The notes beneath the pieces were generated by a model that saw nothing but the letters and a program-made list of their open reading frames with translations, did not search any database and had not been told where the DNA came from. The position numbers were made by a program, and so were the translations under genes. Shown here piece after piece: positions 10,395-13,430 of a DNA stretch of 32,111 nt. The first letter of the stretch is position 1; each line of letters opens with the position of its first letter. The stretch is from Mycoplasmataceae bacterium (GTDB lineage Bacteria > Bacillota_I > Bacilli_A > Mycoplasmatales > Mycoplasmoidaceae): positions 1 to 32,111 of the forward strand of contig JAIRME010000003.1 of NCBI GenBank assembly GCA_031258945.1, read 5' to 3'.

Positions 10395-11525
10395 TTATAA
10401 GTTTTTCAATAAATTTTTTACTCGGTTAGTCTTTTCTCAACTTGCCTGTAAATCATCTCGCCCAAAATGGCCAAAAACAGACGTATCTTTGTAAATAGGT
10501 TCATCTAATTTAAGTGTTTTAATAATGGTGGCAAGATCCATATTAAATGTTTTATTAACAGCACGATAAATTTTTTCAACACTAACATAGTTAGTGTTGA
10601 AAAAATCAATTCGCATGGAAATTGGTTTAGTCTCCCCGATTGCAAAAGCCAATTCCACTTCGCAGCGGTTAGCTAACTTAGCTGCCACAATATTTTTAGC
10701 GATTCAACGTGCAAAATAAGCTCCAGAGCGATCAACTTTAGTATAATCTTTGCCACTAAAAGCGCCACCTCCAACATGTGCAATTGCACCATAATTATCT
10801 ACTACGATTTTTCTACCTGTTAGACCTGTGTCACCAATCGGACCACCAATTACAAAGTCTCCCGCCGCATTTACGCGTGTTATAAAATTAGTATTTAAAT
10901 GATATTTTTTAGCAATAGGTTTCATGATTTTATTTACAACAAAATCATGAAAAACTTTTTTATCAATATTAGGTAGGTGCTGAATAGACATTAACATGTT
11001 GTCTACTTTAGGTTCTTTTCTACTTCAATCTATAGTGACTTGAGATTTCATATCATATTTAGCTGTTTTAAATTTACCTTGTTCAATTAATGAAGTAGCT
11101 GTTTTTACTAATTCATGTGCCAAAACGGTGGATAAAGGCATATAAGTTTTGGTTTTGTTAGTAGCATAACCGTAAACGATTCCTTGATCACCTGCACCGA
11201 TACCATGATGATTGGATTTGTCCACAAGTTTATGGATATCAGGTGATTGACGATTAATATTACTCAATATAGTGAAATCATTTTCATCATAACCTAATGG
11301 TTTTAGAATACTCCAAGTTATTTTTACTACATCAACGTAAGCCTTAGTAGTAATTTCTCCCCCAATTACAATTAAATGATTACTAGCTAATACTTCGCAT
11401 GCAACACGACTATTTTTATCGTATCTTAAACATTCATCTAAAATAGCATCTGCAATTTGATCACAAATTTTATCAGGGTGTCCTTTGCCCACTGATTCAC
11501 TAGTGTACAGTGATAAACTATTCAT
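10395..11525 (-). CDS. metK: S-adenosylmethionine synthase
   Basis: A 376-residue enzyme that makes SAM from methionine and ATP. Motifs include [55 protein letters not shown] and [23 protein letters not shown]. It is read through TGA codons at 11025, 10704 and 10437 and ends ...[14 protein letters not shown], as usual for the family. An AAAGGAGAA site precedes the ATG. The 165-nt leader carries a SAM-I-like riboswitch and an intrinsic terminator, so expression is probably tuned by SAM. SAM then feeds TrmD and TlyA, both in this window. Confidence 0.95.
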
Positions 11526-11549
11526 CGTATTTCTCCTTTAATTTGAAAC

Positions 11550-11587
11550 AAAAAAACTACTTCCATAAAGAGTTTCTATGAAAGTAG
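11550..11587 (-). terminator. Riboswitch expression-platform terminator before metK
   Basis: CTACTTTCATA (11587-11577) pairs with TATGGAAGTAG (11567-11557), 11 bp with one G-U pair, around a 9-nt loop. A run of seven T (11556-11550) follows. This is a clear intrinsic terminator 24 nt before the metK start. Its 3' arm overlaps the 3' strand of P1 and its 5' arm overlaps a possible P4 strand, so aptamer and terminator should be mutually exclusive. Confidence 0.75.
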
Positions 11588-11690
11588 CAAGGGAATTCCT
11601 AATACCATCATCCAAGTTTTAGCACCTTACTATATTTTCAATAGGTTGCTGTGTGATTGTTGAGCTTGTCTCTATCACACTCTTTATGGT
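11561..11690 (-). ncRNA. SAM-I (S-box) riboswitch aptamer upstream of metK
   Basis: Read on minus, the leader has the S-box order. An AAGAG word (11685-11681) is followed by a 7-bp P2 stem GTGTGAT (11680-11674)/ATCACAC (11657-11651). Within it is an inner GAG-ACAAG-CTC hairpin, then the conserved GCAACC (11649-11644), a short P3, and the hallmark AAGGTGCTAA (11628-11619). The P2 loop CAAG (11668-11665) can pair with CTTG (11616-11613) just after GCTAA, where the S-box pseudoknot belongs. The usual CUGG/CCAG has been replaced on both sides, i.e. it covaries. CCATAA (11689-11684) and TTATGG (11568-11563) can form P1. The transcript probably starts near 11691, from TATCAT (11698-11703). The aptamer call is strong; ligand binding is inferred from family and context. 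Confidence 0.8.
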
Positions 11691-11708
11691 TGCTAATATG
11701 ATAACACA

Positions 11709-11714
11709 TATAAT
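11709..11714 (+). promoter_or_regulatory. dnaX -10 box, leaderless start
   Basis: TATAAT ends 6 nt before the dnaX ATG at 11721, placing the transcription start on or next to the initiation codon. No ribosome site precedes the ATG. The site faces the metK promoter in a very short divergent gap. Confidence 0.55.
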
Positions 11715-11720
11715 TATGAT

Positions 11721-13430
11721 ATGTCTTACATTTCTTTATATCGCAAATACCGACCTAAGTCTTTTCGTCAAATTACAGGACAAGTGATTATTATTCACAC
11801 TTTAACCAATAGCATAAAATTGAATAAAGTTGGTCATGCTTATATATTTGCTGGTCCCAAAGGGATTGGTAAAACCACTATTGCAAAAATATTTGCAAAA
11901 GCAGTTAATTGTGAACATCCTATTGATGGTGATGCTTGTAACCAATGCATGCATTGTCAAATTATTAATAGTAATCAAACTACTGATGTACAAGAATTAG
12001 ATGCTGCTAGTAATAATGGAGTAGATGAAGTTAGAAATATCATTGATGGTGTGCGATTTTTACCGACTACTCTATCGAAAAAGGTTTACATCATTGATGA
12101 AGCCCATATGTTGACTACCGCTGCTTGAAATGCTATGTTAAAAACGATTGAAGAAACACCCCAACATGTCATTTTTATTTTTGCTACCACTGAAATGCAT
12201 AAAATACCAGCTACTATTTTATCACGTGCTCAACATTTCCTCTTTAGTCGATTAACCAATCCACAACTAAGTAACATGCTATCAACGATTGCCAAGCAAG
12301 AACATATTACTATTACTAATGATGCAATTGACAAAATTGTTGCTTTGGCAGATGGTTCTGCACGTGATGTATTAAGCATTCTTGAACAAATGGCAATGTA
12401 CACTAACAACCAAATTACTTTAAAAGATGTAATTGATGTGTTTGGTTTAGTAGATTTAGATAATAAAATTAAATTACTCAATTTAATTCTCAGTAAAGAT
12501 ACCAATACTATTATGCAATTGATAGATGAATATGCCCAAAATGGGATTAATTTCATGCAATTAGCAAATGATTTAACCGTTATCTTAATTGATAAATTAA
12601 TTTATTTGCAAACTAAGAATATCATGATTTTAAAAGTTTTAAATGAACATACAGTTCAATCTATTGAAATTGATCAAACTATTTGCGTACAACTAATTAA
12701 TGTGTGACAAGAAGTTTTCATGAAAATGCGTAATGTTAGCGATACCCGTTTTTATTTTGAATTAGGTATTTTTAACTCTTTTAAAAATGAAGTAACTACT
12801 AATCCCAAACAACCTCTAGAAAGTATTCCTGCCATACAATCTTTACCGTCAATTAAACAAGTTGATAAATCAATTGCTTCACATAACGTATTACCACCTT
12901 TAAATAAAGTGTTTACCATAACACCGTATACCGTTCATAGTTCAAAACTTGTGACATCTGACAATAAAATAATCAAACCAACAAAGTTAGATAAAGATAC
13001 TATTTTTAATCAAATTGCCTATAACAATAACAAAAAACAATTGGAAAATATAAGACATATTCTAGAAGAATTAAAAACTCATAACCAAATAAAAGTTTTA
13101 TCTTTTATGACTTCAGCTAGCAAGGTATTGGTGGCTTCTCAAAACGGGATGGTTTTATTATTTGATGACGATGTAGATGCAGAATTATTAAATGCTAAAA
13201 GTACCAACTTTAATTTCTTGATAGAAATAAAAAAATATTTTAATCAACCTATGCAAGTCCTTGGTTTATCTAAAGAAACAGGCAAAAAAATGGCTAATGA
13301 ATTTATGAAATTAAAAAAACAGGGTAATACTTTCAATGAACCAGATATTACCTATTTACAAGAAATCATGAAAGCTAATAATTCCATTGAGCAATTAGCA
13401 ATTGAAATTTTTGGTGATACTAATGCTTAA
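11721..13430 (+). CDS. dnaX: DNA polymerase III subunit tau/gamma
   Basis: A 569-residue clamp-loader ATPase read through TGA codons at 12126 and 12705. It opens YRKYRPKSFRQITGQ. Walker A is GPKGIGKTT (45-53). Four zinc-binding cysteines follow (C64, C73, C76, C79), then IIDEAHML (DEAH 126-129), AAWNAMLKTIEETP, sensor 1 IFATTEMHKIPATILSRAQ and SARDVLSILEQM. The C-terminal 200 residues are a poorly conserved Lys/Asn-rich tau region. No obvious frameshift site for a separate gamma form was noticed. Unlike most bacteria, dnaX is not followed by ybaB-recR but by an unknown membrane protein, whose ATG overlaps its stop by 8 nt. Confidence 0.92.

Follow-up and report, generated by a model that had tools for sequence, protein, structure and literature searches.

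The metK leader and its features

The stretch of DNA analysed (hereafter the window, 32,111 nucleotides from a Mycoplasmataceae bacterium) carries on its minus strand a metK gene preceded by a leader that matches the Rfam SAM-I family (RF00162) at 11692-11602 (49.0 bits, E 1.7e-8, full model 1-108). The gathering score of this family is 44.4 bits, only 4.6 bits below that of the window. RF00162 was the sole Rfam cis-element in the 32-kb window, one tRNA being the only other model that passed, and no second match was found in the 835-kb host genome (46 contigs, 85.8% complete). The host reads TGA as Trp (table 4), and among its nearest named relatives uncultured Mycoplasmataceae bins and mycoplasmas predominate. 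The coordinates of the features are collected in Table 1.

Table 1. Features of the metK leader and gene (positions in the window)
Feature	Position	Strand	Basis or remark
-10 box TATCAT	11698-11703	-	Promoter-like site; ends 5 nt ahead of the aptamer match
SAM-I aptamer (RF00162), without P4	11602-11692	-	Rfam match; 20-nt tail after GGUGC
P1 5' strand ACCAU	11686-11690	-	Rfam alignment, covariation
J1/2 AAAGAG, SAM-binding joining region; last G doubles as first P2 base	11680-11685	-	
Putative antiterminator donor CCAUAAAGAGU: P1 5' strand, J1/2 and next P2 base	11679-11689	-	Inverted repeat
P2 5' strand GUGUGAU (7 bp)	11674-11680	-	Covariation
P2b hairpin GAG-ACAAG-CUC	11662-11672	-	Covariation
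L2 CAAG, pseudoknot 5' strand, in P2b loop	11665-11668	-	
P2 3' strand AUCACAC	11651-11657	-	Covariation
GCAACC, P3 5' strand, presumed SAM contacts	11644-11649	-	Rfam alignment, covariation
UAGUAAGG, P3 3' strand	11625-11632	-	Predicted ON-fold partner of CCCUUGCUAC
AAGGUGCUAA, P3 3' strand, presumed SAM contacts	11619-11628	-	Rfam alignment, covariation
J3/4 CUUG, pseudoknot 3' strand	11613-11616	-	Covariation
P1 3' strand AUGGU; no P4 between pseudoknot strand and AUGGU	11604-11608	-	
CCCUUGCUAC, linker and start of terminator 5' arm	11584-11593	-	Predicted ON-fold partner of UAGUAAGG; inference
Intrinsic terminator hairpin, 14 bp, loop AACUC	11556-11588	-	-14.6 kcal/mol
Putative antiterminator acceptor ACUCUUUAUGG: terminator loop and 3' arm	11563-11573	-	Inverted repeat
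Terminator U tract	11549-11556	-	
Shine-Dalgarno AAAGGAG	11533-11539	-	Sequence
metK, S-adenosylmethionine synthetase, 376 aa, table 4	10395-11525	-	PF00438, PF02772, PF02773

The first-pass annotation had proposed a SAM-I riboswitch in a mollicute metK leader. This proposal was borne out by a covariance-model score above the gathering score, by the Pfam domains of the encoded protein and by the reading of TGA as Trp; the elements then named (GCAACC, AAGGUGCUAA, a 7-bp P2 and a CAAG/CUUG pseudoknot) are all present on the minus strand. The interval it gave, 11561-11690, covers the aptamer and also includes most of the terminator (11588-11556), which was not mentioned. Nor did it note that a promoter lies at the 5' edge of P1, that 11 nt of the aptamer 5' strand are complementary to the terminator, that P4 is missing and that the kink-turn is altered. 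The core segments J1/2 AAAGAG, GCAAC(C) and (G)GUGC are unchanged in the window, as judged by the Rfam and genus alignments, and we take J1/2 AAGAG, GCAAC(C) and (G)GUGC to be the bases contacting SAM here. Pocket residues are listed in the accessible part of PMC6890682. The leader is a bona fide, trimmed-down SAM-I riboswitch of a gut mycoplasma metK, predicted to bind SAM, and as a riboswitch it simply adds one more member to a familiar family.

The position of the -10 box makes it likely that transcription starts at about the first P1 nucleotide. Among the same-genus sites, 9 of 11 have a -10-like hexamer (>=5/6 matches) ending 5-6 nt upstream of the aptamer match; with the promoter directly upstream of P1, the P1 5' strand would thus lie at the 5' end of the mRNA. 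From the end of the aptamer match (11602) to the metK start (11525) there are 76 nt on the minus strand, which include the terminator; the terminator search found one, versus 0.3 expected. metK and dnaX are divergent, and in the region 11698-11721 a plus-strand promoter-like site for dnaX shares sequence with the beginning of the metK riboswitch.

Complementarity between the 5' end of the leader and the terminator

In the textbook S-box, as described in the available part of PMC3656099, the P1 3' strand pairs with the 5' arm of the terminator. A repeat search of the window leader yielded a single inverted repeat, and this involves the P1 5' strand: CCAUAAAGAGU (11689-11679) is complementary to ACUCUUUAUGG (11573-11563) at 11 of 11 positions, the two lying 105 nt apart. 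When compared with shuffled sequences, the 5'-strand duplex of the window was significant (-16.6 kcal/mol, p 0.003) while the classical 3'-strand duplex was not (-6.4 kcal/mol, p 0.67). By this test the classical S-box pairing of the window leader is no stronger than chance, whereas family f7 and a number of controls did test positive.

Both pairings were measured in 79 terminator-bearing leaders (42 of 60 order-level sites and 37 of 39 controls); those left out were the terminator-less L002, L010 and L014, two controls, and others that were mostly near-duplicates. The 5'-strand pairing was stronger than the 3'-strand pairing in six of seven same-genus metK leaders versus 12 of 72 others (Fisher 4e-4). 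Nucleotides 1-20 of the aptamer were also compared with the terminator or, in the terminator-less L002, with the 34 nt before metK. The longest Watson-Crick run was 11, 8, 6, 8, 7, 7, 9 and 6 nt in the eight testable same-genus metK leaders, including 9 in L007 and 8 in L004 and L002, versus 3-5 nt in 35 of 37 control leaders, the remaining two reaching 7 nt (Mann-Whitney p 6e-6); these p-values are nominal and serve as guides only, since the grouping was made after the pattern had been seen and the leaders share ancestry. A background was provided by 107 terminator-like hairpins from the window and from mollicute loci, all outside SAM leaders. None of these reached 7 nt with the window 5' segment, the maximum being 6. 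The close relatives L003 and L009 have 6-nt runs only, a length equalled with either of them by 11 of the 107. The position of the complement varies as well: in L004 it comprises the 5' arm and the loop of the terminator, and in L002 it lies in a leader with no terminator. Outside the genus, the metK leader L033 (genome G223, from another family of the order) has a 5'-strand pairing of -14.1 kcal/mol versus -9.5 kcal/mol for the 3' strand, and is possibly an independent case of a reversed platform.

These complementarities have to be weighed against an ordinary S-box, in which antitermination would come from the aptamer's 3' side alone, with the P1 and P3 3' strands and the linker pairing with the 5' arm of the terminator, and the 5' complementarity would be a by-product of a terminator that resembles P1. 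Such an arrangement matches the SAM-I logic described in the accessible portions of PMC3656099 and PMC10853860. A pairing of AUGAUGGUA with UACUUUCAU, with one U.U mismatch, is present; L003, whose 3'-strand pairing is also strong (-14.4 kcal/mol), and the other-genus leader L054 are classical. Indeed, any terminator that resembles P1 will to some extent bring CCAU/AUGG pairing with it. However, the classical duplex of the window is weak, as given above, and the resemblance to P1 covers only ~4-5 nt, which leaves over the extension from J1/2 to the loop (11 nt here). The loop bases complementary to J1/2 are needed neither for the terminator, nor for P1, nor for a classical antiterminator, and this is the main argument that the 5'-strand pairing has a function. 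We regard an ordinary S-box as unlikely, although it is an explanation to be kept in mind.

Folds were computed with ViennaRNA, which ignores the pseudoknot, magnesium and the ligand, on transcripts whose last nucleotide closes the terminator stem. For the window, the fold with the 5'-strand helix (ON, -35.8 kcal/mol) and that with P1 plus terminator (OFF, -35.0 kcal/mol) were near-isoenergetic. The corresponding ON/OFF values (kcal/mol) were -32.0/-31.9 for L005, -31.9/-32.2 for L009, -41.8/-37.5 for L003, -41.9/-33.9 for L007 and -30.5/-35.3 for L006, the latter leader preferring OFF over the 5'-strand fold by 4.8 kcal/mol. When the window transcript was lengthened stepwise, the aptamer fold was the MFE structure between nt 92 and 104; by nt 108 it had given way to a pairing on the 3' side, of the P3 3' strand with the linker, and by nt 128 the 5'-strand helix had appeared. 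This precedence of a 3'-side antiterminator is a further point in favour of an ordinary S-box. The pairing of CCCUUGCUAC with UAGUAAGG predicted in the ON fold is specific to the window leader. In the predicted ON folds of L003 and L007, a 3'-strand helix is nested in the 5'-strand helix, with P2 and P3 kept, so that both P1 strands would exchange with both terminator arms.

Aptamer periphery, covariation and distribution

In the RF00162 alignment, a single base of the window stands where the model has the 18 positions of the P4 helix, and the tail that starts at GGUGC and closes the aptamer measures 20 nt, versus about 30-43 in most control leaders. P4 is likewise missing from all 11 same-genus sites, eight f7 sites, L054 and four of the 39 control leaders (L084, L085, L087 and L089), its status in L004, L005 and L054 having been judged by eye. 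The tandem G-A pairs of the kink-turn are also lost: the P2 internal loop reads AUA/AACAAU versus the consensus gGA/uaUGAA, so that P2a is lengthened by ordinary pairs, while GAUGA is retained in the kink-turns of some relatives. In our view P4 and the P2 kink-turn are usual in SAM-I yet do not define it, and the model tolerates the loss of P4. Membership of two related families was rejected. SAM-IV (RF00634) matched in none of 12 genomes at E <= 10, and when the leaders were inspected by eye for a second pseudoknot of the SAM-IV kind, beyond a hairpin downstream of P1, no recurrent complementarity emerged. For SAM-I/IV (RF01725), the window scored 29.6 bits (E 0.003) and the SAM sites elsewhere in the genus 30.8-38.8, none of the 12 genomes exceeding the cut-off of 41.1.

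Covariation was assessed in 11 aligned same-genus aptamers on which P1, P2, P2b, P3 and the pseudoknot were imposed. Of 251 cells, 96.0% paired, compared with 87.1% in shuffles (0 of 500 as high), and sliding the 3' partners reduced the paired cells to 29-41%. Changes on both sides were seen at 11 of 23 pairs (20 cells), which no shuffle of 500 reached. The comparison with relatives suggested by the first-pass annotation thus gave conservation of P2, the pseudoknot and the core. Its claim of a compensated pseudoknot holds insofar as both sides covary, two of the four L2/J3-4 pairs showing both-side changes across the 11 sites, but it is not news: CAAG/CUUG occurs in most same-genus aptamers, extended forms are found in family f7, related letters across much of the order, and CAGG/CCUG or UAGG/CCUA in other Bacilli, so a novel pseudoknot was rejected and the recoding is regarded as ordinary family covariation. 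CUGG/CCAG, which had been named as typical of S-boxes, was seen once among the 39 control leaders, where CAGG/CCUG was commonest and UAGG/CCUA next, some of these rows being uncertain because the script picks the longest match. The P3 pair beside the binding pocket is flipped from G-C to C-G (GCAACC..GGUGC to CCAACC..GGUGG) in four of the 11 same-genus aptamers (L007, L009, L010 and L015), and also in L039, L058 and L059.

An RF00162 match was found in 55 of 320 genomes of the order, in 13 of its 50 genera, and lay above the cut-off in 37 of the 320; in the class the figure was 134 of 296 genomes. The earlier statement that riboswitches are scarce in mollicutes is therefore half true and too strong; the accessible text of a 2025 survey (PMC12452182) calls them enriched in Mycoplasmatota. 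Within the genus the element occurs in 9 of 36 genomes. Among the same-genus MetK proteins with >= 67% identity to that of the window (n=11, window included), the leader is present in seven and absent in four, so this control is dispensable, and on a MetK tree of 28 rows its presence needs at least seven gains or losses. RF00162 was absent at the gathering score from the named relatives L091-L098, L101, L103 and L104, and inspection by eye of the DNA upstream of metK in genus members without a match (loci being available for 30 of 84 MetK-matching genomes) revealed no diverged aptamer.

Several other sites differ in layout or target. Family f7 (L016-L020, L038 and L060) has P4-less SAM-I leaders before repeat proteins instead of metK; the L016 protein is a DUF4116 protein (PF13475, E 2.3e-49), and those of L017-L020, L038 and L060 appear similar by eye. 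Genome G143 contains three f7-type sites. In L010 (genome G013), which has no terminator, the metK ATG lies within the P1 3' strand, and it looks as if the SAM-I aptamer would directly occlude the translation start. L015, the second SAM-I site of genome G033, has a classical antiterminator, and the gene downstream encodes a 130-aa cysteine-containing protein with no Pfam match.

The missing P4, the altered kink-turn, a score so near the cut-off, the patchy occurrence in the genus and the clean absence at four of 11 near MetK sequences might all be read as signs of a decaying relic, a SAM-I leader heading for loss that no longer regulates. Against this, changes in P2, P3 and the pseudoknot are compensated and 96% of cells pair; the promoter, core, terminator and Shine-Dalgarno sequence are intact; and a closely similar P4-less layout recurs in the 11 same-genus sites, the eight f7 sites and four of the 39 control leaders. 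A relic is very improbable. A SAM-I variant with another ligand can be set aside almost entirely: spermidine-sensing variants are known, one of those tested being a metK RNA (PMC10853860, in the part available), and the aptamer periphery is changed in the window, but in such variants it is J1/2 and the P3 internal loop that are altered, while the window keeps AAAGAG, GCAAC and GUGC, which led to the rejection of a spermidine-type variant, and the downstream gene encodes a SAM synthetase.

A proposed switch and its relation to known SAM riboswitches

The leader is, in our judgement, probably a SAM-I off-switch for metK that combines a P4-less aptamer with a 5'-strand antiterminator, a mechanism deduced from sequence and predicted folds. 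At high SAM, the P1-P2-P3 core would bind SAM, presumably its ligand, and P1 would be fixed; the terminator (11588-11556) would then form, stopping transcription prematurely and turning metK off. At low SAM, the 5' end of the transcript, CCAUAAAGAGU, would form 11 bp with the loop and 3' arm of the terminator as these emerge, and P2 would be prolonged into a single long helix. Pairing may begin at the loop ACUC before the 3' arm has emerged, in the manner of a toehold. Since the 5'-strand helix needs the terminator 3' arm to be out, it would have to outrun the local hairpin, a point that counts against the model. The terminator 5' arm might meanwhile be held by upstream sequence, by the P3 3' strand and linker in the window and by the P1 3' strand in relatives. 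Both P1 strands would thus swap partners with both terminator arms, the antiterminator covering the SAM site; as the switching strand includes the SAM-binding J1/2, antiterminator and ligand would compete for the same nucleotides. We are evenly divided on the fuller version, a four-strand exchange in which the 5' end (P1 5' strand and J1/2) invades the terminator via its loop and the other half of the exchange replaces the deleted P4 in the junction; the folds predicted for L003 and L007 do show this other half in the place of P4.

What is new here within SAM-I is the combination of a P4-less aptamer with a putative 5'-strand antiterminator. Searches of the open-licence PMC literature gave no paper dealing with mollicute SAM-I riboswitches, with P4-less SAM-I or with an S-box antiterminator formed by the 5' strand. 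In the S-box models available, in the portions accessible to us, switching is assigned to the 3' side of P1; if a 5' strand together with a ligand-binding joiner can also switch, then both the prediction of S-box antiterminators and the kinetic picture need a second case. Within a single genus, nearly identical aptamers are joined to platforms of the 5'-strand, 3'-strand or mixed type, and one has the start codon inside P1; this natural set makes the evolution of expression platforms directly testable. P4-less aptamers, for their part, represent a minimal SAM-I core.

The closest known system is the SAM-I S-box, such as that of B. subtilis yitJ, with which the window has in common the P1-P2-P3 core, the L2/J3-4 pseudoknot, J1/2 AAGAG and GCAAC/GUGC, as well as metK as a target of the class, the logic of P1 against terminator and the layout of an off-switch. 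It differs from yitJ-type S-boxes in that P4 is missing, the G-A pairs of the kink-turn are replaced, the aptamer begins at the likely 5' end of the mRNA, and the strongest antiterminator pairing predicted is that of the P1 5' strand and J1/2 with the terminator loop and 3' arm, in place of the 3' strand with the 5' arm. SAM-I/IV (RF01725) belongs to the same clan and has the same binding core, but the window retains the P2 internal loop and the L2 pseudoknot and has no P4. SAM-IV (RF00634) is also described as lacking P4 in the accessible part of PMC6890682. The P4-less SAM-I leaders of other Bacilli (L084, L085, L087 and L089) and of f7 resemble that of the window in their 19-20-nt tail after GGUGC/AGUGC, while those of f7 differ in preceding DUF4116-type proteins and in having mostly a classical 3'-strand antiterminator.
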